Position numbers and translations under genes: made by a program. From Pseudonocardiales bacterium (GTDB taxonomy: Bacteria > Actinomycetota > Actinomycetes > Mycobacteriales > Pseudonocardiaceae): a stretch of DNA of 64,000 bases. Where the stretch lies: positions 124,001-188,000 of the forward strand of contig JAHEXI010000006.1 of the NCBI GenBank assembly GCA_023252195.1. Reading direction: 5' to 3'. Below, piece after piece: positions 404-23,039 of this stretch (the first letter of the stretch is position 1; every line of letters begins with the position of its first letter). The notes below the pieces were generated by a model. That model saw only the letters and a program-made list of their open reading frames with translations. It made no database searches and had not been told where the DNA came from.

Positions 404-1654
404 TTAGAGGCCCGTATCGTGGTCTTGGGCCGTCACGGGGCCGTCAACGTCCGCTTCCCCGTTACCGAATAGACCGTCGATCGCGCGTTGAGTTCGGGCC
501 GTGCTGGTCGGCATGAGGTGGGTGTAGGTCCGGAGGGTGAAGCCGGGGTCGTGGTGGCCGAGGTACTCCGACAGGGCCTTGATGCTCTCCCCTGCATCGA
601 GCAGCACCGAGGCGTAGTGGTGCCGTAGCGCGTGCGTCCCGTCCTGCCGGGTCGGGTGAGTGATACCGGCCGCCCTCCTGGCCGGTGCCCAGACCCGGTC
701 ATTGAAGCGGCTGCGCAGGAGCGCTCCACCCACGGGAGTGGTCAGGAGCAAGCGCACCGTGACGGGATCCCCACTCGGGATGCGCCATGGCAGCGTCACC
801 GGCACAGGCGGGAAGCGCTCCATATGCTCATCGAGCAGCCGTAACAAACTGCGCGGAAGCGGGACGTCCCGAGTCTTGTTGCGCTTGGGCAGGGCGTACA
901 CCTGCTGACCGTCGATGATCCGCACTTGCCGAACGACATGCACGACCAGGCCCTCGCGGTCGAGATCCGCTGGAGCAAGCCCGAAAAACTCCCCTTGCCG
1001 CAGCCCACAACCAGCGCCGAGCGGAATGGCGATCTTGTAGCGGTCGGCCAACGCCAATCGCATCGCGTTGACCCGAGCACGCGACCAAGGCACAACTTTC
1101 TGTGAGACGGGCCGAGGTCGGACCACTGTCCGGGCATGGCACGGGTTCTCACGGATCAACTTGTCATCAACGGCCGCGCTGAGGATTGAGGACAGGTGCG
1201 CGAAGCAGCCCGATTGGTAGCTCGCGGCCACGTTGCGTTCCTGCATGCTCCGGATCCACGCCCGGACGTCGGTGGGCCTTATCGATCCGAGCTCGCGTCG
1301 TTCGAAAAAAGGCAGGATCTGCGCGTTGAGCCGCCACGTCACGCTGTTCCGCGTGGAGGCATCAAACGTTTGACTATCGAGCCAAGTTCGCACGAATCCG
1401 CCGAAAGTAAGCCTGCCCGCCTTCGGGTCGATGTAGGCCCCCTGGCGCTTATCGCCCTCGACTCTGACGAGGAAGTCCTCTGCCGCCTTCTTCTGGCGGT
1501 CGGGGAAGCTAACGCTGCGCTCGTGGCCCTCGGGGTCGAGGTAGCGCACCCGATAACGCTGGCCCGTGCCGTGCCGCGCCGCCTTGACCCGGGCTCGCTT
1601 CTTCGTCACCGGGTCCGCGACGACCTTACACCAGCGATCCTCGATGTGGCCCAT
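404..1654 (-). CDS. int: Tyrosine recombinase / integrase
   Basis: A 416-aa phage-type integrase that would catalyse recombination between the element and rnpB. An N-terminal arm-binding region and a core-binding SAM-like region (residues about 83-170) precede the catalytic domain. The catalytic set is visible: Arg219 in GCGLRQGE, His341-x-x-Arg344 in HALRHHYAS, His367 in LGHHDP and the nucleophile Tyr377 in LRTYTHLM. I chose the ATG at 1654, 4 bp after the xis stop and preceded by GAGGTGG; an in-frame ATG at 1687 would overlap xis. The gene ends 17 bp from the left attachment site, the normal position for an integrase at its element's end. Confidence 0.93.
   Translation of the reverse strand: MGHIEDRWCKVVADPVTKKRARVKAARHGTGQRYRVRYLDPEGHERSVSFPDRQKKAAEDFLVRVEGDKRQGAYIDPKAGRLTFGGFVRTWLDSQTFDASTRNSVTWRLNAQILPFFERRELGSIRPTDVRAWIRSMQERNVAASYQSGCFAHLSSILSAAVDDKLIRENPCHARTVVRPRPVSQKVVPWSRARVNAMRLALADRYKIAIPLGAGCGLRQGEFFGLAPADLDREGLVVHVVRQVRIIDGQQVYALPKRNKTRDVPLPRSLLRLLDEHMERFPPVPVTLPWRIPSGDPVTVRLLLTTPVGGALLRSRFNDRVWAPARRAAGITHPTRQDGTHALRHHYASVLLDAGESIKALSEYLGHHDPGFTLRTYTHLMPTSTARTQRAIDGLFGNGEADVDGPVTAQDHDTGL
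427..445. repeat. Tandem GGGCCGTC sites, 11-bp period (left arm)
   Basis: GGGCCGTC occurs at 427-434 and again at 438-445, exactly one helical turn apart. The same pair with the same spacing is found at 15591 and at 20643 near the right end. Tandem sites at an element end, close to the core, are the usual layout of integrase arm-type sites. These overlap the last codons of int. Confidence 0.6.
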
Positions 1655-1658
1655 GAGG

Positions 1659-1856
1659 TCAGGCCACCTCGGAGCTGAGGCCAGCAAACCAGTTCCGAAC
1701 CTCAGCCGGGTCGTACCGAAGATGCCTGCCGACCTTGCGAACCGGCGGACCCTCGCCCCGCCACTTCCACTGATAGAGCGTCTTCACCGGCACGCGGAGA
1801 TACAGCGCCGCATCATCGACCGTCCACAACAGATCGATCCTCGCTACATCACCCAT
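1659..1856 (-). CDS. xis: Excisionase (MerR-like helix-turn-helix)
   Basis: A 65-aa protein with the winged helix-turn-helix found in AICE excisionases: LLWTVDDAALYLRVPVKTLY, then a WRGEGPP wing and RHLRYDPAEVRNWF. It would bend DNA at the attachment site and steer the integrase toward excision. The start overlaps the rep stop as TGATG, and int begins 4 bp downstream, so rep, xis and int are probably translationally coupled. The size and the position between rep and int match pSAM2-family elements. Confidence 0.88.
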   Translation of the reverse strand: MGDVARIDLLWTVDDAALYLRVPVKTLYQWKWRGEGPPVRKVGRHLRYDPAEVRNWFAGLSSEVA

Positions 1857-3505
1857 CACGCTGCCTCCTCGATTGCCGAACGGTTCTCGGGTGGTGATCC
1901 GCTCGCGGCGAGTTGGGCGGCGGTGTATTCGGCGTGCCATCGCTGTCGTTCGGCCACGGCCTGCAGTAGCAAGACGGGACGTGGTGGGACGTCGGGGTCG
2001 GCGGGTGCGGGGCGTTCCCACCGATACGGTCCGTCGTCGGGTCCGTGCGTGGGCTGGATGCCGACCTGTTCCAGGAGTTGCCGAACAAACGCGCCACGCT
2101 CGGCCCGGTGGTCATCGAGGGTCTTGTTCGACCATTTGCGGGAGACCAGGACTCGTCGGCCGGCGATGCCGAGGTGTTCGGGTTTGTGTGCTTTGCCCTT
2201 GCAGTGCCCGGGGGTGATGGAGTGTCGGGCGCCGTGGGGTTGGATGCCGTAGAGCAGCCACACCGCACAGCGGGTCGAGCAGGGGGTGACCAGGAGTTCG
2301 GCGTGGAGCCGGTGGGCGTGGTCGCGGTGGGCGTCGGTGGCGTGCTCGCCGAGTCCGGCCGCTTGGCTTACAGATTTCGTCAAATATTTCGTGAGGTAAC
2401 CGATGTGGCGGCCGGCTTCTTCGGTGCCGCCCAGGATGCCCTTGACGTGTACTTGGGTCCCGAACCGGACGACGTGCGCGGGCTCGGCTAGTTCGTCGCA
2501 GGCTTGGTCGAAGGTGGGCAGTGGTGTGCCGGTGTCGGGGTCGGTGAAGGCCTTGGCGCGGGTGTCCCATACCGGTAGCCGCTGGTCGGTGTAGAGGAGC
2601 TGGTCGTGGTGGGGCCACCAGACTTGGTGGTACGTGGCGGCGGTGATGGCTCGTAGTTCGGTGCGGGGGATGGCTCCTCGGATGGCGGCGTGAAAGTGCG
2701 GGGCGCCGCGTTTTTGGGGTTCGACGGTGCCGAAGTACTGCACCTCCCAGCCGACACAGCGGCGGGTGTTTTGCCAGAACCGATCCAGCAGCGCGGGGAA
2801 GTGGATCGCGTCTCGGGCGGCCCGCTGGTAGTCATAGCGCTCCGGGTCCACCGCGGCCCCCTCGCCATCGACCCGGCCGTAGGAATCCAGGGTCAAGGTC
2901 AGGAACGTCGACGGCCGGTAGCGACCGGCGAAGACCCGCCCGAGGGTGCGGTTCTCGACGGGTCGCCGGGGAAGGTCCGGGGCGTCTTGGCGACGCCGGG
3001 TGGACCGCTTGACCGGCTTGGGTGGCGGGTCTAAGGGGGTGAGTCGTCCGCGGACTCCTGCCGCGCGGAGTTCGGTGTCCAGTTCGGCGACCGACTCTGC
3101 GATCTGCTCACACGTAACCTCATCACCCACGGCGCGGCACTCGGCGTAGACCGCGACGAGATCAGCCCGGGTGGCCATCAACTCCTTGTGATCCTCGCTG
3201 GGGGTGTCTCGGGCGTTGACCGGTTCGGCGTCGAGGTGCCAGCCCTGGCGGCATTGGACCATCCGCAGCCGCCGCGCCTTGTCCGCACACGGCGGACACT
3301 GGTCGGCCCGGGTGGACCCACACGGGACCGGGACGACCTCGACCCGGCCGGTGGTGGTGTCGATGCGGCGCATGGCCAGCGGTCGGATGCAGACGCCGTG
3401 TTGTTCGGCCAGGGCTTGGGCGACATCGGCGCTGAGCGGTAGCGCGGCCCGCTGCGCCCGGGTCATTTCCGCGATTCCCACCGCGGCGGGTTGGGTGGCT
3501 GTCAT
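1856..3505 (-). CDS. RepSA-like rolling-circle replication initiator (HUH)
   Basis: A 549-aa protein of the pSAM2 RepSA kind that would nick the excised circle and start rolling-circle replication. Visible motifs: a putative zinc cluster (Cys62, Cys70, Cys73, Cys85), the strand TFLTLTLDSYG before the metal site, the HUH motif PHFHAAIRG (His270, His272) and the tyrosine motif YLTKYLTKS (Tyr370, Tyr374), any of which may be the nicking residue. I chose the ATG at 3505 because GGGAGGT lies about 10 bp upstream and the start overlaps the upstream stop as TGATG; an in-frame start at 3538 is less likely. It is the third gene of a five-gene overlapping run ending in int. Confidence 0.9.
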   Translation of the reverse strand: MTATQPAAVGIAEMTRAQRAALPLSADVAQALAEQHGVCIRPLAMRRIDTTTGRVEVVPVPCGSTRADQCPPCADKARRLRMVQCRQGWHLDAEPVNARDTPSEDHKELMATRADLVAVYAECRAVGDEVTCEQIAESVAELDTELRAAGVRGRLTPLDPPPKPVKRSTRRRQDAPDLPRRPVENRTLGRVFAGRYRPSTFLTLTLDSYGRVDGEGAAVDPERYDYQRAARDAIHFPALLDRFWQNTRRCVGWEVQYFGTVEPQKRGAPHFHAAIRGAIPRTELRAITAATYHQVWWPHHDQLLYTDQRLPVWDTRAKAFTDPDTGTPLPTFDQACDELAEPAHVVRFGTQVHVKGILGGTEEAGRHIGYLTKYLTKSVSQAAGLGEHATDAHRDHAHRLHAELLVTPCSTRCAVWLLYGIQPHGARHSITPGHCKGKAHKPEHLGIAGRRVLVSRKWSNKTLDDHRAERGAFVRQLLEQVGIQPTHGPDDGPYRWERPAPADPDVPPRPVLLLQAVAERQRWHAEYTAAQLAASGSPPENRSAIEEAA

Positions 3506-3681
3506 CAGTCCCTGACCTCCCGGAAGGTGGTCGCGCACCGGAGCGCGCCGAGTGGGATGGTCGTGGTGGCATCGGGTGCCAGATCGGTTAACGCCTTACC
3601 GACCTTGGCCAGTACCCACACCACGACACCCAAGGCGCCGCCACCCGCAATGACCGCAGCGATCAAACCGATGTCCATCAT
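3505..3681 (-). CDS. Small single-span membrane protein of the rep operon
   Basis: A 58-aa protein from an ATG at 3681 (a second ATG follows directly). Residues about 4-25 (IGLIAAVIAGGGALGVVVWV) form one hydrophobic span, followed by a short polar tail. The stop overlaps the rep start (TGATG) and the start overlaps the stop of the preceding 34-codon gene, so it is locked into the rep-xis-int run. Small membrane proteins of unknown role are common just upstream of rep in actinomycete integrative elements; some belong to spread (Spd) functions. No specific function can be assigned. Confidence 0.7.
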   Translation of the reverse strand: MMDIGLIAAVIAGGGALGVVVWVLAKVGKALTDLAPDATTTIPLGALRCATTFREVRD

Positions 3682-7061: not shown

Positions 7062-7877
7062 GAAGTTATCGTCTCACATCGACCTCGACGAGCGAACGTC
7101 GGACGGCTACATGCGGTGAGCCTCAGGATCATCTCCCGACGATCGAGCCCGAGAAGCCCCCCTGCTAACGCGCGCAGCGGATGGCCGATCAGCAGGGCAC
7201 TCTGAGGAAGACGATCGCCGATGCTGCGGGACGTCATCACATAGCCGGCCCGGCGACCAAGCCGACGCGATCGGCCTCCTATCGAGCGTCGCCAGGCCCG
7301 ACTGTTGACAGGCCAGATAGTGATGCCACGCAGCGTCACCTGGCGGCTACCGAACGTTGCTGCCGAATTCCCCTCTATGGGATCAAGTGCGCCGCCTGAG
7401 GCGGCGCGAACCTGCCTCGTTAAGTAGCTCTCCTGGTCGACCGACCGGAACCACGACACTGCGCGCGGCCCTTGTGGGCCGTGCTCGGTCGCGGCCCGGT
7501 CGGTCGACGGGCCGCCAGCTGAGGGTGCGCCGTCGTGGTTGTGGCAAGGAGTTCGGAGATCAGGGCGACGCGCACCGACCGCCGGCGAGTCCAGCCGAGC
7601 CAAACCGCTGCCTCTTGCCGCACGAATCCCGCCATGTTGCCCGGGATCGCCCCGCCGAGCACTTGTTGCGGACGCCAGATGCGATTTTCGTGTCATCTCG
7701 TCGATCTCCCGAAGGGCTAGCACACCGCGGGGTGTGGCCTATCGGTGGGTCGGTGCTCCTGTTATTGTTTGCTACCAGCGTTCATGCCCGCAGCCCGCTC
7801 GGTTTCGAGGGAGTGCGGGGCGTGCGCGGTGTCGCCCCAGACCCGGTGACTGATAGGTGTCGGCCCGGGGAGAGCAG
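7062..7877. other. 816-bp stretch without a convincing gene
   Basis: Open frames run through this region on both strands, but none has both a good ribosome-binding site and a recognisable domain. A minus-strand segment near 7500-7650 (residues like EAAVWLGWTRRRSVRVALIS) faintly resembles part of a DUF222/HNH protein. The region probably holds gene debris. Confidence 0.4.
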
Positions 7878-8455: not shown

Positions 8456-9190
8456 GTGACGGAGACCACCCGGGCCGATCGGGTGTGGGGTGTGGTGACC
8501 GCCTACGCCGAGGCGCTCGGCGTCCCAGTGTCGTTGCGCTCGCTGTGTCAGGCGGCGGCCGCTCGGTTGCCGGTTAGCGCAGTGGCGGTATCGGTACGCA
8601 GTGGCCGGGTGGTCTCCGAGGTGCTCTGCGCCAGCGGATCGCTAAGCCGGGAGCTGGAGGAACTACAGCTCACCGTGGGCGAGGGCCCGTCGCTGCAGGT
8701 GTTGGTCGGTGGCCCTTTGGTGCTGGTGGGTGACCTGGATTGCGCCGAGTCGCAGGCTCGCTGGCCATTGTTCGTCCCGGCTGCCGTCCAGGCTGGGGCC
8801 CGGGCGCTGTTCGCGTTGCCGCTGCGTGTCGGTGTGATCCGGGTCGGAGTCTTCATCCTCTACGCCGACCACCCGGGCCAACTGCCGGCCGAAGAGTTGG
8901 CTGAGGCGTGGGTCTTCGCCGAGTTTGCTCGGCGGTTGGTGCTCGATGAGCAAGCCGGCATCGGCACCCCGGAGGGCTACCCGGTTGATTGGTTGTCCGA
9001 CAGCCGTCCCGAAGTCCACCAGGCCACCGGAATGATCTCCGTGCAGCTTGGTGTCGGGATCGCTGAGGCGTTCAGCAGGCTGCGGGCGCGGGCGTTCACC
9101 GAAGGGCGCCCACTATCCACTGTCGCGGCCGAGGTCGTCGCCCGCCGACGACGGTTCGACCCCGATCACACCGCACGAGAAGGCGTGTAG
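8456..9190 (+). CDS. GAF and ANTAR domain protein 1
   Basis: A 244-aa protein: GAF sensor domain at residues about 20-165 and an ANTAR-like RNA-binding module at about 180-235 (RPEVHQATGMISVQLGVGIAEAFSRLRARA). ANTAR proteins bind paired hairpins in mRNA leaders and prevent termination; GAF domains sense small ligands. The ANTAR part retains the helix-start motif QATGMIS but lacks the usual long charged linker. The GTG start at 8456 is preceded by GGGGGCGG. It lies directly upstream of a second GAF-ANTAR gene (41-bp gap) and downstream of a STAS relic. Confidence 0.85.
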   Translation: MTETTRADRVWGVVTAYAEALGVPVSLRSLCQAAAARLPVSAVAVSVRSGRVVSEVLCASGSLSRELEELQLTVGEGPSLQVLVGGPLVLVGDLDCAESQARWPLFVPAAVQAGARALFALPLRVGVIRVGVFILYADHPGQLPAEELAEAWVFAEFARRLVLDEQAGIGTPEGYPVDWLSDSRPEVHQATGMISVQLGVGIAEAFSRLRARAFTEGRPLSTVAAEVVARRRRFDPDHTAREGV

Positions 9191-9231
9191 CGTGATCGGT
9201 CCGCGCTATGTTCATGTGGGGATAACCACCG

Positions 9232-9975
9232 ATGGCCGATGATCGATTGACCCGGACCTTTGTGGAGCTTGCCGATACCCTGGTCGCCGGCTTCGACGTG
9301 GTCGAGTTCCTGCACATGCTGGTGGATCGCTGCATGGAGCTGCTCGATGTGTCCGCGGCCGGGTTGCTGCTGGGCGACTCCCACGACCAGCTGCGAGTGA
9401 TGGCCTCCTCCGCCGAGAACATCCACCTGCTGGAGCTGTTTCAGCTGCAGAACCACGACGGACCCTGCCTGGACTGCTACCTCACCGGTGAACCGATCAG
9501 CCACCCCGACCTGCGCGTGGCCGCTGACAGGTGGCCGATGTTCGCTCCCGCGGCCACCGAGTCGGGATTTCGGACCGTGCACGCCGTGCCGATGCGACTG
9601 CGCTCGCAGGTGATCGGGGCGCTGAACCTCTTTCACACCGAGCCAAATGCCCTAGCCCCCGAGGTCACCCAGATCGGTCAAGCCATGGCCGACGTGGCCA
9701 CTATCGGCTTGATCCAGGAACGAGCCCTGCACCACCAGCACGTCCTGGTCGACCAACTGCAGACCGCGCTGGACAGCCGTGTGATCATCGAACAGGCCAA
9801 GGGCATCATCGCCGAACGCCACGGCATCGACCCCGGTGCGGCCTTCACCCTGATGCGCGTTTACGCCCGCAACCACGGGCAGCGGCTCACCGAGTTTGCC
9901 GCCGCCATCATCGACGGCACGACCGCCATCACCAAATTCCTCCCCAGCGCGCCGGCTGCCACTCCCGGGGTGTAA
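9232..9975 (+). CDS. GAF and ANTAR domain protein 2
   Basis: A 247-aa protein. GAF domain at residues about 5-160 (LHMLVDRCMELLDVSAAGLLLGD, GPCLDCYLTGEPISHPDL, VHAVPMRLRSQVIGALNLF). After a helical linker comes a canonical ANTAR module (about 178-230) with ALDSRVIIEQAKGIIAERHG and a conserved R/N pattern in MRVYARNHGQRL. It probably acts as a ligand-controlled transcription antiterminator. Start ATG at 9232. It closely resembles actinobacterial GAF-ANTAR regulators and is better conserved than its upstream neighbour. Confidence 0.9.
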   Translation: MADDRLTRTFVELADTLVAGFDVVEFLHMLVDRCMELLDVSAAGLLLGDSHDQLRVMASSAENIHLLELFQLQNHDGPCLDCYLTGEPISHPDLRVAADRWPMFAPAATESGFRTVHAVPMRLRSQVIGALNLFHTEPNALAPEVTQIGQAMADVATIGLIQERALHHQHVLVDQLQTALDSRVIIEQAKGIIAERHGIDPGAAFTLMRVYARNHGQRLTEFAAAIIDGTTAITKFLPSAPAATPGV

Positions 9976-13190: not shown

Positions 13191-13429
13191 ATGCCCTCGC
13201 CGGGCGGGCAGATTTCCGGGATGGCCACCCACAAGAGTTGGTGCGGCTGGGTCGGAGTGGGCTGGGTGTGGCGTCCCGTCGACCTCCCTTCAGGGCTACC
13301 ACACGGCACCCCGGGGGCAGAGCTAGATCACACATGCGCCGGTTCCGTCGAGGGCTACCCCCGGGCTGCCGTGTGGTCGGGCTGCGCCAGATCGACGGGA
13401 CGCCACACCAGCCTCAGTGTGCAAGATCG
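13191..13429. repeat. Structured repeat R1
   Basis: Begins GCCCTCGCCGGGCGGGC and ends CAGTGTGCAAGATCG. The outer stem GTGTGGCGTCCCGTCGA (13266-13282) pairs perfectly with 13392-13408. The inner 19-bp stem at 13299-13317 pairs with 13358-13376 at 18 of 19 positions. Copies at 15749 and 19016 keep both stems with compensatory changes, and a right half remains at 20561. It may be a structured RNA, a folded single-strand DNA site or a mobile repeat. The rest of 12850-13464 holds no gene that I can support. Confidence 0.75.
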
Positions 13430-13464
13430 TCGCAATGCCAACGGCACGGTGAGGAGACTGGCCA

Positions 13465-13680
13465 GTGCAGACCGACTCCGAAGCTGCCACCGAGAATCAG
13501 GTGCTCGACAAGCGGATCCGTGGCCCGTCAGAGCCCGCGAACGAAGAGCCCGCAGGATTCTACATCAGTTACTACATCAACGGCTACGGACAACCACGGA
13601 CGTCCTCGGACCTGGACCCGACGATAAGGCCCAGCCCTGGACAACCAGCAGGTAGTGTCTCACCCCGGATCGGTCGGTAA
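13465..13680 (+). CDS. Small Tyr-rich hypothetical protein after repeat R1
   Basis: A GTG at 13465 with GAGGAG 8 bp upstream opens 71 codons. The peptide has a charged N-terminus, a Tyr-rich centre (FYISYYINGYG) and a Pro/Ser-rich tail. A second copy of this DNA lies after repeat R3 (19298-19420), where a 2-base difference breaks the frame. The good ribosome-binding site favours a gene; the decayed second copy shows it is dispensable. No family is recognised. Confidence 0.4.
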   Translation: MQTDSEAATENQVLDKRIRGPSEPANEEPAGFYISYYINGYGQPRTSSDLDPTIRPSPGQPAGSVSPRIGR

Positions 13681-13790
13681 CAGGGATTAGTCGAACGCAT
13701 CTAGGCCTGGTGTTCGAGGATGTAGTTAGATGCCGTGAGCGTGAGGGCGGTCGATCTGTCACCCATCGTCTGGACTCGCACGCTCAGCGG

Positions 13791-14009
13791 TCAGAACTCG
13801 CCGTCACGGACCCCGGCCACGAAGGCCACCCACTCCGAAGCAGTGAATCGAAGGTCCGGCCGGTTGGGGTTGTTTGAGTCCCGCACCGCCACAGCTCCGT
13901 CACCAAGCTCGGTCACCTCGACGCACTCTTTCATGTCGACCTCGCTGTAGCGGCTCTTGCGCCACGTCACGCCGCTGATGTCACGTGCGTACAGTTCCGC
14001 TTTGTCCAT
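13791..14009 (-). CDS. DUF397 protein
   Basis: A 72-aa protein with the DUF397 signature: WRKSRYSEVDMKECVEVTELGDGAVAVRDSNNPNRPDLRFTASEWVAFVAGVRDGEF. These small proteins usually sit next to an XRE-family regulator and can act as partners of it, as in the whiJ family of Streptomyces. Here the usual XRE partner is absent; instead two other minus-strand genes lie 86 bp upstream. Start ATG at 14009 with GAGAGGA upstream. Confidence 0.9.
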   Translation of the reverse strand: MDKAELYARDISGVTWRKSRYSEVDMKECVEVTELGDGAVAVRDSNNPNRPDLRFTASEWVAFVAGVRDGEF

Positions 14010-14095
14010 GATCCTCTCCTCTGATATTGCCTACGTCCACGGCCTCGGTCCCGTCCTCGCCGCGAAATCCGAGCCCGGGGCAGGCTGTCGGTTGA

Positions 14096-14407
14096 TCACC
14101 GGCGTGGGGTGGGGACGCCGGTGTCCTTCGCCGGGGTGGTGATCAGCGCGTTCACCTCGGCGCGGAAGGCTTCGATGAGCACGGCGATGGCCCGCGCTGC
14201 CTCGTGCAGGGCCACGTGTGTGTGGTAAGCGTGGGTCAGGGCGGGCGGCGGTGGGCCCTGGTGGCCGGCGCTGAGCCATCGGTCAAAGCTGTGCCGGGCC
14301 ACCTTCATCGCCAGCTCAGCGTCGTGCCATTGAGTGCTCGCTGCGATCCCTCGGGTACTGGCGTCGCCCTGGGCCACAGGGTGCCGCGGGGAACCGTGCT
14401 GATTCAT
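14096..14407 (-). CDS. Hypothetical protein coupled to a sigma-like gene
   Basis: A 103-aa protein whose ATG overlaps the stop of the upstream sigma-like gene (ATGA), so the two are co-translated. It is mostly helical: AMKVARHSFDRWLSAGHQ, then HTHVALHEAARAIAVLIEAFRAEVNALI. There is no known domain. Its place between a sigma-region-4-like protein and a DUF397 protein suggests a regulatory module. Confidence 0.6.
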   Translation of the reverse strand: MNQHGSPRHPVAQGDASTRGIAASTQWHDAELAMKVARHSFDRWLSAGHQGPPPPALTHAYHTHVALHEAARAIAVLIEAFRAEVNALITTPAKDTGVPTPRR

Positions 14408-14976
14408 GCCGTTGGTCCTTCCGGTGCGGCGGTTGTGGGCTCGGGTGTTAGGGGTTCGGTCTGGGCGTGGGGCAGCAGCACCACCCGCCCCCGGGTCGCT
14501 GGCGGTGGGCCATTGGCAGTCGCCGCGGGTTGCAACGCGCTCAGTGTCTGGTCTTGGACCCGACGTATCGCGGCGGGTGTGACACCTAGGGCGCCCACGA
14601 TGTCCGGAATGGACACACCGGCCACGACGCGCAACAGAACGATCTCGCGATCAGGGCTGACCAGCGTGGCGATCAGCGCCGGGAGCCGGGCGCAGTGCCG
14701 GGCGTCGACTCGCCGCCGGCTGGGCGGAGAGGAAGGTGTGGTCGCGGCGGGCACCGGCGCAACAGGAGCGAAGATAGGCGGTGCCGCCACCGACGTCCCC
14801 TCACAGGTGGTGCCACCGCCGGGACCGGCCGTTGTGTTCCTCCCCCGAACCCGTATTCCGGGTTCCGGTTGCCGGTCGCTGGATCCGGTCGGGTCCTGGC
14901 GCACCGGAGTTCGCCCAGACCATGCCACCAGTGTCCGCCACGCCGGGCGGAACGCTCGGGGCCAGCCTGGTGACAT
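14404..14976 (-). CDS. Sigma-70 region 4-like DNA-binding protein
   Basis: The C-terminal part (residues about 105-165) contains REIVLLRVVAGVSIPDIVGALGVTPAAIRRVQDQTL, a helix-turn-helix of the sigma-70 region 4 kind. No region 2 is visible, so it is probably an orphan region-4 regulator rather than a full sigma factor. The N-terminal half is Pro/Gly-rich and disordered. The start is uncertain: an ATG at 14976 gives 190 aa, one at 15036 gives 210 aa, and neither has a strong ribosome-binding site. Confidence 0.6.
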   Translation of the reverse strand: MSPGWPRAFRPAWRTLVAWSGRTPVRQDPTGSSDRQPEPGIRVRGRNTTAGPGGGTTCEGTSVAAPPIFAPVAPVPAATTPSSPPSRRRVDARHCARLPALIATLVSPDREIVLLRVVAGVSIPDIVGALGVTPAAIRRVQDQTLSALQPAATANGPPPATRGRVVLLPHAQTEPLTPEPTTAAPEGPTA

Positions 14977-15325
14977 AGAGGGGACACCCGCGTGACGCGC
15001 GACCTCAGACGATCGCAACGGTCCTGGAATACGCATCGATACCCTCGGACGGCTGGTGCTCGGCGCGAGTCGCCGGGCACTCGTGGCGCCGGGTCCGGGG
15101 CGTTCACAAATCGTAGCCGGGCTCGTCGATTCAGGAAACCCATGTGGTTGATTAAGGTGCGCGCAGGCACCGGAGGAGGTCGGCACGGACCCAGGCGAGT
15201 CGATGCGACGAGTCCCGCGACACGACAGTTTCCGCTTGACCGGCCAGAGAGATACGGACACGACGCCCAGGCTGGAGCTGAGCGTCCAGCTCCGAGCAGC
15301 CAGCTCCCCCACAACACCCGCCGCC

Positions 15326-15347
15326 CGTGCCAAATTCGTGCCAGATG
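15326..15347. repeat. 11-bp-period CGTGCC tandem beside a tRNA fragment
   Basis: CGTGCCAAATT is followed at exactly 11 bp by CGTGCCAGATG. It lies 83 bp from the tRNA-like fragment and shares its core with 13033-13054. Confidence 0.5.
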
Positions 15348-15430
15348 CAGCGGGGAGTTACGGGGACACCGATCGTCACTCCCCAACGAATACTCCAACC
15401 TGCCATCGCAGGTCAGACGACCATTCCTGC

Positions 15431-15496
15431 TGGTGGCGGGTCAAGGATTCGAACCTTGGAAGGCATCAGCCGACGGATTTACAGACCGCTGCCGTG
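15431..15496 (-). tRNA. tRNA-Tyr-like 3' half (fragment)
   Basis: Read on the minus strand, this contains an anticodon loop with GTA, a short type-II variable arm (GGC...GCC), a perfect T stem and loop (CAAGG TTCGAAT CCTTG) and an acceptor 3' strand ACCCGCC followed by ACCA. The matching 5' half is missing or scrambled and the anticodon stem has a mismatch, so this is not a working tRNA. Integrases of actinobacterial elements commonly carry or duplicate tRNA 3' ends, so this is a likely old attachment site. Confidence 0.6.
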
Positions 15497-15590
15497 CAAC
15501 CCGAGCGTAGTCGCATACTCAACAGCCCCTGCGCACCCATCGTCACCCGGCCCGCACACGCCGATGACCATAGGCAGGTTCCGTCGCATC

Positions 15591-15609
15591 GGGCCGTCTG
15601 TGGGCCGTC
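15591..15609. repeat. Tandem GGGCCGTC sites, 11-bp period (internal)
   Basis: GGGCCGTC at 15591-15598 and 15602-15609, identical in sequence and spacing to the pairs at the two ends of the element (427, 20643). It starts 158 bp before repeat R2. Confidence 0.6.
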
Positions 15610-15748
15610 TCAGCCGACGGAACAACACTCAACAACGAGATGCGACGCCGACCAACAACAAGTATTGCCGCTGGTCAGCGCCCGTCTCACGGCTGTGATC
15701 AGGAGGCCTGCTTGGTCTCCCAGAAGATCTTGTCAATCTCAACGACCC

Positions 15749-15995
15749 GTGCCCTCGCCGGGCGGGCAGGTCTCGGGGATGGCCAGCCTCCAGAGGAAGT
15801 GCCGTACTGGGTGGGGGTGGGGGTGGGCGGGGTGTGGCGTCTCCTCAACCTCCCTCAAGGGCTACCACACGCCAGCCTGTGGGCAGAGCGGGATGGCGCA
15901 CGCTCCGGTTCCGTCAAGGGCTACCCCCAGGCTGGCGTGTGGTCGGGCGATGCCAGGTCGAGGGGACGCCACACGATCCCCAGCGTGCGAGATCG
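15749..15995. repeat. Structured repeat R2
   Basis: Second copy of the R family. The outer stem GTGTGGCGTCTCCTC (15832-15846) pairs with 15960-15974, with one T-G pair. The inner stem (15865-15883) pairs with 15924-15942 at 18 of 19 positions. Relative to R1 the inner stem differs on both strands while staying paired (GGCA/TGCC becomes GCCA/TGGC; a C-G pair becomes T-A). It ends CAGCGTGCGAGATCG. Confidence 0.75.
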
Positions 15996-16245
15996 TCGGC
16001 GGTCGCGCCGAGTTGATGATCGTTTGGACACTTTATGGTCACAAAACACATCCAGATAACCCAAAATAACCGAAGACAACGAGCGTTTGGAGCCACGAAA
16101 ATCGCAGGTGATCAGTACTATCCGCGAACAACCACGACCACAGTCCGAGAATCCTTGGGTATGGGGTCGCCGCTCCCTTGACCGGATATCGCTATGTGCC
16201 AATCCGGACTCAAAGATGGTCCCCAGTCGCTGGCGAAACTCCGGA

Positions 16246-16719
16246 CTAACGTGGGAGCCCCATATCTTTCTTTGCGCTGACGATTAGCGCCTCACGATAC
16301 TGTCGGATTTCAGCCCTCATCGGATCGCATTCGTCCTGACTCAGACCTTCGCTGATCCTGTCGGATAGCTCGTCAAGGCTCGCGCGTAATCGCTGCGCCT
16401 GATCCAATGTTCTTGCAGGGGCAAGCAGGCGGATCTTCGTCTGTGCGTGTCTTAGCGCCGAACGGTGTGTTTGTACGGTCTGGCTAGTTGCTTCAAACTC
16501 GTCGACGGCCCCCTCCTTTTGAAAGAGACGCTGGTACTGGTTAAGCGCACTAGTATAGAGGTAGCTAGTATCAATGAAGGAATAAAATGCTTCTGCTAGT
16601 GAATCCCTTGCCCACTTGAGCCGCTCCCGCCGTCCAGTCGAGTAAGTGGTCACGGTGAGATTGACGATGCTGATCACCGCCGCAGCTGACGCTGCGATTG
16701 CTGTAAAGTCAAATTGCAT
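16246..16719 (-). CDS. Membrane-anchored helical protein, AT-rich
   Basis: A 157-aa protein with one N-terminal transmembrane span (residues about 5-27, FTAIAASAAAVISIVNLTVTTYS) followed by basic residues, which predicts a cytoplasmic body. The body is helical with coiled-coil character (EFEATSQTVQTHRSALRHAQ, RLRASLDELSDRI). GC is clearly lower than in its neighbours, suggesting recent acquisition. No family is recognised. The layout resembles many single-span proteins of unknown role in accessory islands. Confidence 0.65.
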   Translation of the reverse strand: MQFDFTAIAASAAAVISIVNLTVTTYSTGRRERLKWARDSLAEAFYSFIDTSYLYTSALNQYQRLFQKEGAVDEFEATSQTVQTHRSALRHAQTKIRLLAPARTLDQAQRLRASLDELSDRISEGLSQDECDPMRAEIRQYREALIVSAKKDMGLPR

Positions 16720-17277
16720 CAGTACCCCGTTTTAATTCCTGCGTGCCATCTCCCAATCGACGGAACGCGTCGAAGTGTTGCAGAACTTTCCTACACGAGT
16801 CCTCGGACCGTCCACGCCGTGCCGCCGCGGCAACGGTGCCGTGCGATGGCCACCGGACCACCATCGTCCCCTCCGTCACGTCGAGGAGCCTCGCCGAGAC
16901 CGAGAGAGTCGCGGGCAAGTGAGGCCAACCCGGCCCAGCGAAAGCCGACGGCAACGCGCACGATGACCTGGCACCAGCAGCACAGTGCGAAGCCGGGTCT
17001 CATCGCAGATTGGGTCCCGGAGGCTAGTGTTGCGTGCTCTTGGGGGCCATCAACGGGCCGCAGGTTCAACATCCTGTCTCATCCTGTGCGCCTTGCAGGG
17101 GATTCAAGCATGATCATCGTCAGCGAGTCGTCAGCGGAAGCGGCACGACGAGTTAGCACGGGCCGATACACACCGGCACGTAGGCGCAGCTCAGCGGCAC
17201 GGAGAGGTACCCCCGGGTAACCAGACGCACGGCCAATCAGCGTTCACACCGAAGTGGTCCCAGGAGCCTCTGTCCGC
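16720..17277. other. 558-bp gap without a supported gene
   Basis: Open frames exist on both strands (for example minus 16709-16954), but none shows a domain or ribosome-binding site that I trust. No strong repeat was seen. Confidence 0.4.
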
Positions 17278-17800
17278 TCAGTTGTCCCCGGGATCGTTCA
17301 CCCCCAGGGCACCGTTGCCCAGAGTGAACGTCGCTGGGCCAACCTCAAGGCACCGTGCCGCGCACCCTCGCCGCCATCTCGTCATCATGTGGTCGGTGTC
17401 GCCCAGCACAAGATCGTGCGGTCCGGTGATGTCACGGCCGGGATCGTCATAGGCGTAGCTGTAGCCGCCCGCGCGGTTCGCCAAGATCTCCCACCAGTTC
17501 CCACCCAGGTCCAGCACGTTGAAGCAGTACGCGCCCTGCTGATGCCGGACAGGATGGATCTGCCGGATCCGATACTCCTCCTTGACTGCGGTCAAGATCT
17601 CATGGGCACGATCCACCTCCGCTGGGCTGCCGACGTCGATGCCGTTGTGGTTCATCAAACTCATCTTGTGGTCATCGTTGCCGGTCTCCACCACGACGTA
17701 GCGGTGCAGGTTGGTCAGCAGGGTGTATCTGTGGGTGCCTTGGGCTTCTCTATCAGCTATGCGGGCGAACAGGGTGGGCGCGCGGTGGGTGACCGGGGAC
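17278..17800 (-). pseudogene. N-truncated VOC (glyoxalase-like) gene
   Basis: The minus strand encodes the middle and C-terminal part of a vicinal-oxygen-chelate protein: HRYVVVETGNDDHKMSLMNH, GIDVGSPAEVDRAHEILTAV, then GAYCFNVLDLGGNWWEILAN, where N-W-W-E-I is the metal-site strand. The N-terminal strands with the first metal ligand are absent, and the frame continues without a good start into DNA used by the next gene on the other strand. Probably a broken dioxygenase or lyase of the VOC superfamily. Confidence 0.5.
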
Positions 17801-18637
17801 GCATCGTGGAGTCCCGGGTCGGTGTGTTGGGTCGATGTGTCGAGTACTGATCCGGCCGGTAGTCGGGAGTTCTACAGCGGGTTGTTCGGCTGGACTTACC
17901 AGATCAACTCGCGTCCTGGCCGCGAGCAGTACCTCACCGCGTTGTGCGGTGGTCGCCCGGTGGCTGGTCTGTCGGGAGTTGCGGTGCCGGCGGATCACGG
18001 GGCCGCCTGGACACTGTATCTGGCCAGCGTCGACGTGATGCGTACCGCGCAGGTGCTTGGCCGGTGGGGTGGCCGGGTGCTGTTTGGGCCGGTGGATGTT
18101 CCGGGGCAGGGCAGGGTGCTCATCGGGGCGGACCCGACCGGTGGCGTGATCGGTTTCTGGCAGCCCGCACGACCGTGGATGTTTCGCGGGACCGCCCCTG
18201 GGTCGCTGTATTGGGCTGAGCTGGATACCTGGGACGGCGCGCGAGCTGATGCGTTTTTTGCGAACCTGTTCGGCTACCAGCAGCGGCAGATCGGTGACGG
18301 CATCGACGTCGACTACACCACCTGGTCACGTGAAGGGCAGACGATGCTGGGCAGATTGAGGATGAACGAGGGCTGGGCGGACCCGGACTGCGCTGCGCAC
18401 TGGATGCTGCACTTCACGGTCGCACCGAAGATCGGCACCGACGCTGCGACCCGTCGGGTCCTCACGTTGGGCGGTCGGGTGGACATTGATCCCTACGACA
18501 CCGAGCTGGGGCGAATCGCACGGGTCGCCGACCCTTCCGGAGCCACCTTCGCACTGATCGACCCCACCGATCGAGTCGATGCCACCGCCTACCTCGCGGC
18601 CGGCTCAGCCCGAGTAGATGATCCCTACGACGACTGA
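17789..18637 (+). CDS. VOC family protein with two tandem domains
   Basis: A 282-aa protein with two betaalphabetabetabeta modules: residues about 10-125 (GSVCWVDVSSTDPAGSREFY...DPTGGVIGFWQ) and about 140-270 (GSLYWAELDTWDGARADAFF...DPSGATFALID). This is the layout of the CFP30B/glyoxalase-like proteins of actinobacteria; their substrates are unknown. The GTG at 17789 gives the usual short lead-in before GSVCW; an ATG at 17759 is possible. The 5' end overlaps the opposing truncated VOC gene, so two VOC genes lie head to head. Confidence 0.8.
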   Translation: MTGDASWSPGSVCWVDVSSTDPAGSREFYSGLFGWTYQINSRPGREQYLTALCGGRPVAGLSGVAVPADHGAAWTLYLASVDVMRTAQVLGRWGGRVLFGPVDVPGQGRVLIGADPTGGVIGFWQPARPWMFRGTAPGSLYWAELDTWDGARADAFFANLFGYQQRQIGDGIDVDYTTWSREGQTMLGRLRMNEGWADPDCAAHWMLHFTVAPKIGTDAATRRVLTLGGRVDIDPYDTELGRIARVADPSGATFALIDPTDRVDATAYLAAGSARVDDPYDD

Positions 18638-18856
18638 AAACACCCAGCCGACACGGCACCGGCGAGCTCGGGTGCAGACCACCAGGCGCCCCAGTCGGTG
18701 GCGCACATTCCGACCAGCATTTGCCGTAGGTCGATGGATCATCGACGGTTCGCGCAGGACGCGTAGCCGCGGGTCCAACCGTGAAGATCCACACCTGGGC
18801 GGGTGGACGCAACCGCGCGCATCGTAGACATCACGCCAGGCGCGAGCAGTGCCACC

Positions 18857-18911
18857 GGTACAAATTGGGTACAAACCGCATCACCCAACACCAACCAACG
18901 TTGACCAACAT
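18857..18911. repeat. Repeat B: 11-bp-period GTACAAA pair plus ACGTTGACCAACAT
   Basis: GGTACAAATTG (18857-18867) is followed at exactly 11 bp by GGTACAAACCG, then a CACCCAACACCAACCAACG segment. It matches repeat A (10060-10114) in the same orientation. The AACGTTGACCAACAT part also resembles AACGTCGAGAAACAT beside the right-end arm sites (20665-20679). It starts 159 bp before repeat R3. Confidence 0.6.
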
Positions 18912-19015
18912 CAACCGGAGTCTTCGCAGGTAAACAACCGTCCCAGCCGTCAAAGCCCCGGCCAGAGCTTTCTCAGCGGCGCTACATCAGCAAGCGCAGT
19001 CCAGTCCAACAAACC

Positions 19016-19245
19016 ATGCCCTCGCCGGGCGGGCAGATCTCCGGGATGGCCGGCCACAAGCGCGGGCAGGGCCGGGTGGACAGCGTGTGGCATCCCATCG
19101 ATCTCCACCCAGGGCTACCACACGGCGACCCGGGGGCAGAGCTACCCGAGGCCCTCGCCGGTCGCGTCGAGGGCTGCCCCCGGCTCGCCGCGCGGTCGGG
19201 CTCCGCCAGATCGACGGGATGCCACAGCCCCAGTGTGCAAGATCG
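19016..19245. repeat. Structured repeat R3
   Basis: Third copy of the R family. The outer stem at 19086-19102 (TGTGGCATCCCATCGAT) pairs with 19210-19226 at 16 of 17 positions. The inner stem at 19118-19137 pairs with 19176-19195 at 17 of 20. Compared with R1, GGCGTCCC/GGGACGCC has become GGCATCCC/GGGATGCC and GGCA/TGCC has become GGCG/CGCC, so both partners changed together. Similarity to the R1 neighbourhood extends about 200 bp further right. Confidence 0.75.
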
Positions 19246-19577
19246 CGGTAACCCACCGCCGCGTCGACAAGCCTGGCCGGGAAAACTCCTGACCAAGAAT
19301 CAGTTGCTCGACGAGCGGATCTTCGACCGGTCAGAGCCCACGAACGAACAACCGCCTCGCCTACATCAGTTGCTACATCAACGGCTACGGACGACCACGA
19401 ACGTCCTCGGACCCGAACCCGAAGATAAGGCCCGACCACGGACGAATCTGCACGTAGTGGTGGGTGCTGCTTCCGACTACGGATCACATGGCTTAGCCCC
19501 GCCTTGCCCGCAGCCCGCGCACTCCCTGGACGAAACAGGGATGCAGCGCACCATGGTGGTCCGGTAAGAACCGAGGA

Positions 19578-20489
19578 ATGCATTCCACCACGGCGGTCAG
19601 CACCGGCATCGAGATTGCCTACGAGACCTTTGGCGCCCCGGGCGGTCGTCCGCTGCTGCTGGTGAATGGGCTAGGCGCCCAGATGATTGGGTGGCACCCC
19701 GAGCTGTGCACGGCGCTGGTCGCTGAGGATTTTTTCGTGGTGCGTTTCGATAACCGCGATGTGGGCAGGTCCACCCACCTGCAGGACGCGCCACGGCCGG
19801 ACCTGGATGCGGCGATGGCTGGAGACTTCTCCTCGGCGTCTTACCGGCTTGAGGACATGGCCGCCGACGCGGTCGGTTTGCTCGACGCACTGGGGGTCGA
19901 CCAGGCCCACGTGGTGGGCGTCTCGCTAGGGGGCATGATCGCCCAGACGATGGCCATCAGACACCCCGACCGAGTCCGCAGTCTGACCTCCATCATGTCC
20001 ACCCCGTGGTTTGGCATCGCCTCACCCACCGCCGCGGTTCAGGTCGCCTTGTCCGCCTTGTCCACGTCACCGCCGACCACTCGCGCCGAGGCGGTGGAGC
20101 GGGCAGTGACTCTCCGGAAGATCATCGGCTCACCCGGTTACCCGATGGACAAACCCTGGATCCGTGAGGTGGCCGGGCAGTCCTACGACCGCTGTTTCGA
20201 TCCAACCGGCATCGCCCGCCAGAGGCTGGCAGTCGGTGCCTCCGGTGATCGCACCGCGGCATTAGCCCACGTGACAGCGCCTGCCCTGGTTGTCCACGGC
20301 GACGCCGACCCGTGGATCCCGCTGCGTGCTGGCCAGGCTACCGCCGCCGCACTGCCCAACGTCGAGCTGCTCGTGGTGCCCGGCATGGGACATGACCTGC
20401 CCCGCGGCATCTGGCCCACGCTGGTCGCGGCGATCAGCCGGCTCGCCGATCGGGCCGAAAGCTCTGCCCACCCCACAGTGACCAGTTGA
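19578..20489 (+). CDS. Alpha/beta hydrolase
   Basis: A 303-aa alpha/beta-hydrolase fold protein. Visible features: the oxyanion-hole stretch LLLVNGLGAQMIGW near residue 28, RFDNRDVGRS near residue 56, the nucleophile elbow GVSLGG near residue 115 (Ser in the middle), the acid in VHGDADPWIP near residue 238 and the final His in VPGMGHDLP near residue 268. It is similar to small esterases and epoxide-hydrolase-like proteins; the substrate is unknown. It is the last cargo gene before the right end of the element. Confidence 0.88.
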   Translation: MHSTTAVSTGIEIAYETFGAPGGRPLLLVNGLGAQMIGWHPELCTALVAEDFFVVRFDNRDVGRSTHLQDAPRPDLDAAMAGDFSSASYRLEDMAADAVGLLDALGVDQAHVVGVSLGGMIAQTMAIRHPDRVRSLTSIMSTPWFGIASPTAAVQVALSALSTSPPTTRAEAVERAVTLRKIIGSPGYPMDKPWIREVAGQSYDRCFDPTGIARQRLAVGASGDRTAALAHVTAPALVVHGDADPWIPLRAGQATAAALPNVELLVVPGMGHDLPRGIWPTLVAAISRLADRAESSAHPTVTS

Positions 20490-20560
20490 TCGCCCGCATT
20501 CGCTGTGTAGGCCAGGACTTGAAGACCGGCCCACGACTCGGCTGGTAGTTGAGAAGAGAT

Positions 20561-20637
20561 GTTGCCCCCGAGACACCACGTGGTCGGGCTGCGCCAGACC
20601 GAACGGATACCCCACAAATCCCAGCGTGCAAGATCGG
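20561..20637. repeat. Half copy of structured repeat R (R4)
   Basis: Matches only the right half of the R family: TTGCCCCCGAG...CACGTGGTCGGGCTGCGCCAGA...CCCAGCGTGCAAGATCG. The left stem strands are missing, so neither long stem can form. It ends 5 bp before the right-end GGGCCGTC tandem. Confidence 0.65.
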
Positions 20638-21211: not shown

Positions 21212-21964
21212 GTGCCGCCCGTCCAAGTTGCCCTGCTGGTTGTTGCGGGCGTGGTGTCGGGCATGGTCAACGCGCTGGCCGGTGGTGGGTCACTGCTGCT
21301 GTTCCCGGCATTGCTTGCGGTGGGATTCCCGCCACTTGCGGCGAATGTCACCAATTCGGTCATTCAGTGCGCCGGCAGCGCGGGCCTAGCCCTGGGCAGC
21401 CGCCGGGAGCTGCGGAAGCAACAGGGTCGGGTGCTGTCGACCATCGGCGTCGCGGTGGCGGGCTCGCTGGTGGGTAGCCTGCTGCTGCTGGTGCTGCCCG
21501 CCGCGGTGTTCGACGCGGTGGTGCCCGCGCTGGTGGCGGTGGCCAGCGTGCTGCTCGGAGTGCAACCGTGGCTCGCCCGGTGGATCGGCGAGCCCGCACC
21601 CGATGCCCCAGACCGTCGCGCGGTCTTGCTGCCTGCGGTATTCATCGCCGCAATCTACGGCGGCTACTTCGGCGGGGCGCTCGGCGTCATCCTGATCGCG
21701 GTGCTCGCCCTCACCGCGCATGATGACCTGCGCAGGCTCAACGCCGTCAAGGGCGCGCTCTCGCTGATCATCGCCGCGGTCAGCGCAGTGGTGTTCGCCA
21801 TCGGTGCACCGGTGGACTGGCTGGTCGTCGCGCTGCTCGCCCCCGTCAATCTGGTCGGGGGCTTCGTCGGCGCGAAGCTCGCCGGTCGGGTGCCCGAACC
21901 GGCGTTGCGAGCCGCCGTGGTTGTGGTCGGCTTGGCGGTGTCGATCTACCTGTTCATCAGGTGA
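21212..21964 (+). CDS. TSUP/TauE-SafE family membrane transporter
   Basis: A 250-aa membrane protein with about eight spans and the TSUP pattern: GVVSGMVNALAGGGSLLLFPALL in the first half and AAIYGGYFGGALGVILIAVLAL at the start of the second. The family exports sulfite or sulfonates and related organic anions; the substrate here is unknown. GTG start at 21212, only 38 bp past the rnpB 5' end on the opposite strand. The 3' end overlaps the convergent rnhC gene by 8 bp. Confidence 0.88.
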   Translation: MPPVQVALLVVAGVVSGMVNALAGGGSLLLFPALLAVGFPPLAANVTNSVIQCAGSAGLALGSRRELRKQQGRVLSTIGVAVAGSLVGSLLLLVLPAAVFDAVVPALVAVASVLLGVQPWLARWIGEPAPDAPDRRAVLLPAVFIAAIYGGYFGGALGVILIAVLALTAHDDLRRLNAVKGALSLIIAAVSAVVFAIGAPVDWLVVALLAPVNLVGGFVGAKLAGRVPEPALRAAVVVVGLAVSIYLFIR

Positions 21965-23039
21965 GATAGGAAGTGTCGTTAACCAGGCTCACCGTGGCGG
22001 GACCGTCGGGATAGAACTCCGCCACCGACAGCGATGCGATATCCAGGTGCAACCGGTGGAGCAGCGACGGTCCGGCGTCCAGCGCCATCCGCAGCAGCGC
22101 CTTGATCGGCGTGACGTGGCTGACCACGATCAGCGTCGCCGCACCGTGCTCGGCGATCAGCTGATCACGTACCCGGCGAACCCTGCGGTGAACCGCGTCC
22201 ATGCTCTCGCCGCCCGGGGGTGCCAGCGAGGTGTCAGTGAGCCACCTGGTGTGCAGCCCCGGATCCCGCTCTCGGGCTTCGGCGAAGGTCAAACCCTCCC
22301 AGGCGCCGAAGTCGGTCTCGATCAGTCCATCGTGGACGGTCAACGGCACACCCAGCGCATCGGCCACGGGTTGGGCGGTCTGCCTCGCCCGCCGCAGCGG
22401 CGAGCTGACCACCGCAGCGACACCGTTCGTGTTGGCGAGCCGAGCGGCGGCAGCGGCCGCTTGGCTCGCCCCAAGCTCAGTCAGCGACAGGTCCGCGCGC
22501 CCGGAGTAGCGGCGCTGCGCGGAGTGCTCGGTCTGTCCGTGCCGCAGCATCAGCAGCCGCGTCGGGGAGCCGGTAGCGCCGGTCCAGGGCGACGGTGGCG
22601 CCGGCTGTGCCGCCGCGCGCTGAGTGATGCCGGCCTGGGTGTCCATCGCCTCGTTGGCCAGCCGGTCTGCGTGCGCGTTGCGGGCTCGCGGAACCCAGGT
22701 GTATCTGACATCGCCCAGCTGGCGGGACAGCTCGGCCGCCTCGCTGACCAACGGTCGCAGGTGCGGTTGCTTGACCTGCCACCGACCGCTCATCTGCTCG
22801 ACCACCAGCTTGGAGTCCAGCCGAGCCTCGGCGGACTGAGCGCCCTGCTTGACTGCGGCGCGCAGCCCTGCGATGAGACCCGTGTACTCGGCAACGTTAT
22901 TGGTGGTCGTGCCCAGGCCCCCAGAAGTCTCCGCGAGTAGCTCCCCGGTGTCGGCGTCGCGTACCACCGCGCCGTACCCGGCCGGACCGGGGTTGCCACG
23001 CGAGCCACCGTCGGCCTCGATGATGACGCGCCGGGTCAC
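21957..23039 (-). CDS. rnhC: Bifunctional RNase H / histidine phosphatase
   Basis: A 360-aa fusion like mycobacterial Rv2228c. Residues 1-140 are a type I RNase H domain with the DEDD-type acids visible in EADGGSRGNPGPAGYG, NVAEYTGL and DSKLVVEQM. After a Pro/Ala linker, residues about 160-358 are a phosphoglycerate-mutase-like domain with RHGQTEHSAQRRYSG (phospho-His) and VVSHVTP. In mycobacteria it removes RNA from RNA-DNA hybrids, and the second domain has CobC-like alpha-ribazole phosphatase activity. Its GTG start overlaps the cdsZ stop (GTGA). Confidence 0.93.
   Translation of the reverse strand: MTRRVIIEADGGSRGNPGPAGYGAVVRDADTGELLAETSGGLGTTTNNVAEYTGLIAGLRAAVKQGAQSAEARLDSKLVVEQMSGRWQVKQPHLRPLVSEAAELSRQLGDVRYTWVPRARNAHADRLANEAMDTQAGITQRAAAQPAPPSPWTGATGSPTRLLMLRHGQTEHSAQRRYSGRADLSLTELGASQAAAAAARLANTNGVAAVVSSPLRRARQTAQPVADALGVPLTVHDGLIETDFGAWEGLTFAEARERDPGLHTRWLTDTSLAPPGGESMDAVHRRVRRVRDQLIAEHGAATLIVVSHVTPIKALLRMALDAGPSLLHRLHLDIASLSVAEFYPDGPATVSLVNDTSYLT

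Follow-up and report, generated by a model that had tools for sequence, protein, structure and literature searches.

AICEs, mobile elements that occur widely in antibiotic-producing bacteria, are considered to replicate by rolling circle, and rolling-circle plasmids carry interchangeable types of single-strand (second-strand) origin, or sso. To our knowledge, no second-strand origin has been described for AICEs. The open papers and the portions of an AICE survey that were searched make no mention of one, and those same portions of the survey do not mention a locus such as the one reported here (PMC3218068). Among described systems, the closest are the sso of ICEBs1, an orientation-specific intergenic locus of about 194 nt with three stem-loops in which structure can replace sequence (PMC4595007), and the sti of pIJ101, a site for second-strand synthesis located downstream of rep (PMC11985553).

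The locus studied here, a folded non-coding element present in several copies within the 64,000-nt stretch of Pseudonocardiales DNA analysed (the window), resembles ICEBs1 sso1 and the pBAA1/pTA1060-type sso in being about 200 nt long, non-coding, composed of several stem-loops and with an orientation mostly tied to rep (PMC4595007), and it shares with ICEBs1 sso1 both its location on an integrating rolling-circle element and the fact that structure outweighs sequence. On the contrary, it comes from another phylum, has no known sequence in common with those origins, folds into a larger branched structure with long stems, and also occurs as dispersed chromosomal copies, its function being here predicted from sequence. 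As for pIJ101 sti, the host is a rolling-circle one with GntR and transfer genes and the locus lies downstream of rep, although our covariance model R1 matched nothing significantly in the pIJ101 record, where the top hit scored 15.1 bits (E 0.087). In related genomes (e.g., at loci L187, L189, and L193) it is surrounded by the full set of pSAM2-type AICEs, namely integrase, RepSA, FtsK-like Tra, GntR, and a tRNA att site. No paper on the locus was found in the open literature, and older pMEA300 and pSAM2 papers might hold a prior description.

Within the window, the unit is ~236 bp long and non-coding, and sequence confirms the three full copies and the half copy placed there by the preliminary description: R1 (13191-13429), R2 (15749-15995), and R3 (19016-19245) are complete, while R4 (about 20537-20636) is a remnant that keeps a single half and whose stems cannot form, all of them being read on the minus strand, which is the folded one. 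The folded cores lie at 13258..13416 in R1, 15824..15982 in R2, and 19077..19232 in R3 (minus strand; 153.5, 142.3, and 135.2 bits, respectively, with covariance model R1). Two features come in addition to those previously described. One is a separate, conserved hairpin motif of 34 nt that occupies the left end on the plus strand, found at 13192..13226 in R1, where it reads as the minus-strand 3' hairpin GCCC-GCCCGGCGA-GGGC with a T-rich tract after it, and, by profile and motif matches, at 15750..15784 in R2 and 19017..19051 in R3 (all on the minus strand). The other is a pair of small hairpins, also on the minus strand, in the junction between the outer and inner stems, which in R1 are placed by fold and alignment at 13266-13284 with 13390-13408 (outer) and about 13298-13320 with 13355-13377 (inner) on that same strand and comprise 18 and 19 pairs, respectively. 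R1 alone folds much better than its own shuffles, with z values of -3.9 for the plus strand and -5.6 for the minus strand (0/200 in each case). Iterated profile searches of neighbouring genomes revealed sharp repeat edges, which within the genus and on the plus strand are marked by TGCCCTCGCCGGGCGGGCAG and, opposite, by GCGTGCAAGATC, and mosaic flanks beyond them. An additional 83-bp stretch, 88% identical, is common to R1 (13560-13642) and R3 (19361-19443), so that these two copies derive from related larger units.

Read 5' to 3' along the minus strand, the element begins with an outer arm terminating in CATCCCGTCGACCTGG, followed by a small hairpin (GGCGyAGCC) and by the inner stem (about 19 bp), which is capped by a loop that varies between about 40 and 75 nt; on the 3' side of the inner stem come a second small hairpin (CCCTc.gGGG) and the outer arm GGTCGACGGGATG. 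A spacer, usually of about 50-60 nt but of about 20 in some copies, then leads to the near-invariant CATCCCGGAGACCTGCCCGCCCGGCGAGGGC hairpin and its T-rich tract, the T content being 49% in the 10 nt past the conserved hairpin versus 23% in the background (42 copies). This 34-nt 3' motif is similar to the 5' outer arm, the same A having been lost from both in one genus, and an alternative pairing with the 3' arm might thus be possible.

Covariation was evaluated on alignment A5, consisting of 46 minus-strand cores and 42 pairs, for which the outer arms had been partly used to select the sequences. Two-sided compensatory changes were found in 33 of the 42 pairs, a value reached by none of 500 shuffles, with 96.9% of cells pairing versus 82.3% in the shuffles and a covariation score of 0.435 versus 0.153, while sliding the partner column by 1-3 positions lowered pairing to 37-48%. 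The paired changes noticed earlier among the window copies hence extend far beyond chance: in the homologue set the stems are kept and the changes are paired, and selection on the fold is upheld by dozens of homologues, including one on a plasmid of another order whose stems have been almost entirely rewritten. Over the whole structure, wobble cells on the minus strand amount to 114 G.U versus 6 A.C. Because the outer arms had a part in picking the sequences, the unbiased figure is that of the inner helix, which was not used for this purpose and shows 74 G.U versus 2 A.C in our own count from the per-pair tables. Such an excess identifies the window minus strand as the working one, so that, of the former proposal of a fold selected as RNA or as single-stranded DNA on either strand, the selection stands and the strand is now assigned. 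The element is therefore confirmed as a genuine folded non-coding element whose fold is strongly selected on one strand. A one-strand G.U bias fits RNA and is also expected, less strongly, for ssDNA; given the strand rule described below and the association with rolling-circle AICEs, we lean towards ssDNA.

The element is found across Pseudonocardiaceae, with about 12 copies in its own genome and representatives in 11/11 genomes searched of the genus. An exact pattern scan located it in named genomes of Thermocrispum, Saccharomonospora, Longimycelium, and several Pseudonocardia isolates, as well as in Pseudonocardiales MAGs, and the 34-nt motif, allowing one mismatch at most, occurs in 33 of 150 family genomes, with no match (0) for the reversed pattern. 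The covariance model scan covered the order level. A diverged relative resides in another order, on an 8,132-bp Streptosporangium plasmid that encodes an HUH Rep different from RepSA, an FtsK-like Tra, and GntR, and there the stems are rewritten while the 34-nt motif is nearly identical. The deposited form of this plasmid (L123, NZ_CP109466.1; 16,264 bp) consists of the 8,132-bp unit repeated exactly twice in tandem, which may be an artefact of the assembly. Plasmid records gave matches only on the Streptosporangium plasmid and on two large Pseudonocardia plasmids, phage records yielded nothing above chance, and no viral contig contained the motif. At the gathering and E-value thresholds no Rfam 15 family matched, and the repeat stays as unrecognised as it had first appeared.

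This element belongs to the integrating rolling-circle AICEs of Pseudonocardia-type bacteria. In 20-kb gene maps the pSAM2-type plan reads tRNA, int, RepSA, FtsK-like Tra, GntR, and element, the latter being distal to the integrase. Directly beside the element there is no constant protein partner, no single family recurring among 63 neighbours, and AICE genes only emerge at a scale of 2-12 kb, individual loci showing RepSA, GntR/UTRA, integrase, and tRNA genes near the copies. The only AICE components found in the window are a tyrosine integrase of an AICE-like element (404..1687, minus strand; PF00589, E 6e-13), a RepSA rolling-circle initiator (1856..3538, minus strand, which is the folded strand of R1-R3; PF20199, E 8e-101), and a tRNA-Tyr 3' fragment at 15433..15494 (minus strand), about 250 bp from R2, that represents the remnant of an att site; the same fragment recurs on contig C10, about 240 bp away from the copy there. 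The hint of a tie to rep and int in the preliminary description is accordingly supported by position. Regarding orientation, the folded strand is the tra/rep/int strand in mapped elements and the rep strand in 24/26 class-1 cases (our own count, with cases partly related by descent). In both exceptions, G047 and G094, RepSA lies on the opposite strand, convergent to the hairpin, and the element is of the serine-recombinase type.

An independent sample of 15 RepSA regions without the 34-nt pattern, picked without reference to the element, was also explored. With the covariance model, class 1 was recognised in 5 of them (80-138 bits), always on the rep strand, and a fold scan, run on a subset of AICE regions, detected a second class of hairpin at the same place in 4 others, likewise on the rep strand (4/4). 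This class 2 is a long nested hairpin of RepSA AICEs (L217:10505-10694, minus strand; L218:7552-7740, plus; L219:13113-13300, minus; L227:9184-9377, plus), in which L217 and L227 differ by compensatory changes. The remaining 6/15 regions displayed no recognised hairpin of class 1 or 2 by either method. A third class, with arms CTGCCATGGGGCGAG / CTCGCCCCATGGCAG, was found in AICE-type plasmids of Streptomyces and in one filed under Kutzneria (L198:3382-3528, L199:9988-10129, and L200:7150-7305 in Streptomyces AICE-type plasmids); it is matched in 18 plasmid records, and its folded strand is the rep strand in 3/3.

A locus that (i) is selected for its structure, (ii) is non-coding and nearly always folds on the rep strand, (iii) occupies one slot next to different Reps, and (iv) can be replaced there by unrelated hairpins fits what is expected of an sso. 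The element indeed resides on rolling-circle replicons (RepSA AICEs and the HUH-Rep plasmid) as a non-coding stretch of about 150-250 nt with a conserved single-strand stem-loop fold, and the several unrelated hairpin classes in one AICE slot recall the sso types that rolling-circle plasmids can exchange for one another. Judging from these sequence features, R1-R4 are best explained as copies of a cis-acting single-strand (second-strand) origin of pSAM2-type AICEs, a reading to which we grant about half of our confidence. RepSA, as an HUH-type rolling-circle initiator, would displace the folded strand as ssDNA; the element, once single-stranded, would fold into the branched hairpin; and host RNA polymerase or primase might rely on the fold and on the near-invariant 34-nt hairpin motif for priming complementary-strand synthesis. 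The conservation of the element across different Reps points to such a host factor. R2-R4 are probably the remains of older AICEs inserted at the same place. Against an sso stand the strand exceptions in G047 and G094, the 6/15 RepSA regions without a class-1 or class-2 hairpin, the T-rich tract past the 3' hairpin, which an RNA terminator would display just as well, the lack of a significant model match in the pIJ101 record, and dispersed copies distant from any Rep, for which an sso offers no explanation.

Such dispersed families, far from any Rep, comprise 19 model hits in G080 (a finished genome), 18 in G043, 14 in G115 (both strands counted), and 8 in G165 (another family), with G153 also carrying one. 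Dispersal without other elements is true for G080, G043, G115, and G165 and untrue for most genomes. The copies often lie 16-39 nt past a stop codon and, in one genus, they are sense-oriented and just 3' of genes. Those of G080 form a ~460-bp repeat unit past stop codons, mostly between convergent genes. At its loci (L165-L171), another large palindrome and a tail made of ~57-bp tandem repeats accompany the element. In the dispersed copies of G043 (L173, L174, and L175), CCAATACCGCTAAGTT... interrupts the 3' motif at roughly the same point and looks like an insertion sequence targeting the hairpin. One orthologous site (L202 versus L201) lacks the core in G158 exactly between GGTCATCCCG direct repeats, with the 34-nt motif kept, while the variant in G127 carries many paired changes and the element is missing from other strains.

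These dispersed copies and orthologous-site variants, together with the terminator-like 3' end, keep alive a reading as RNA. A structured ncRNA transcribed from the minus strand (that of rep/tra), with its 3' end at the 34-nt hairpin and U-rich tract and with a role in regulation or maintenance of the mobile element, is the main rival to the sso, one that we put forward tentatively. It would account for the strong bias of G.U over A.C, for the intrinsic-terminator-like T enrichment, and for the sense-oriented copies 3' of genes, but it predicts neither a strict rolling-circle slot nor several unrelated hairpin classes in it, and the helices are very long and nearly perfect for an RNA. Moreover, Rfam gave no match and no TANNNT position is common to the copies within 150 nt upstream, where GC-rich divergent promoters could escape. 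More doubtful is the specific version in which these loci would constitute an unnamed family of large structured ncRNAs that are encoded by actinobacterial integrating rolling-circle elements and spread 3' of chromosomal genes, with a 3' motif mimicking the 5' outer arm in a switch-like manner.

The dispersed families in the five genomes, the G080 unit past stop codons, and the presence, absence, and core loss between direct repeats at one orthologous site might also reflect a REP/MITE-like mobile or structural repeat, selected for its own spread and carried by AICEs incidentally. The element shares with REP/BIME and MITE its palindromic nature, its dispersal, and its location past genes in some genera, but its fold is far larger and branched, it is tied to AICEs, and no linked transposase was found. 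In addition, 14 motif-bearing loci are situated within about 12 kb of RepSA, even though genomes carry just 1-5 RepSA genes per several Mb, and neither the fixed slot, nor the strand rule, nor the plasmid copy is expected of such a repeat, making this explanation unlikely.

A double-stranded DNA site, either a dso for Rep or a clt for Tra, could be envisaged on rolling-circle conjugative elements, all the more as the motif AGGTCnnCGGGATGsC is present three times inside the element. Nonetheless, strand-specific wobble is not expected of duplex sites, the clt on which AICE Tra acts is dsDNA (PMC3218068), the 34-nt motif is nearly unchanged with different Reps, and the locus lies 2-12 kb away from rep in most elements, all of which renders this option highly improbable. 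Finally, chance or a by-product, be it a decaying coding repeat, to which the open plus-strand start MPSPGGQ.SGMA of the motif in some copies might point, or an assembly artefact, is practically negligible given a covariation reached by 0/500 shuffles and the presence of the element in finished genomes and plasmids. As a coding sequence the element was rejected: some copies look as if they had a start codon and ribosome-binding site, but the frame is not kept between copies.

Returning to the single-strand origin, a conserved locus that folds on a specific strand, with at least three classes able to substitute for each other in the same slot, represents a direct candidate for the second-strand origin of AICEs and makes this question testable by an ordinary vector assay. 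If the proposal is true, the element would add a new class to a known kind of locus, would help to mark the boundaries and orientation of AICEs, and might allow better vectors to be built for Pseudonocardiaceae. If it acts instead as RNA, it would represent a large new RNA family, one that Rfam lacks and that shows overwhelming covariation.

Other features were also observed in the window. At 7641-7730, inside an ORF region, part of the element is weakly matched (E about 1e-5 to 1e-4), probably by a decayed fragment. Two adjacent GAF-ANTAR proteins, of the RNA-binding antiterminator type, are encoded at 8456-9975, about 3 kb from R1, and a single ORF at 21957-23039 joins an RNase H-like domain (RVT_3) to a histidine phosphatase domain.
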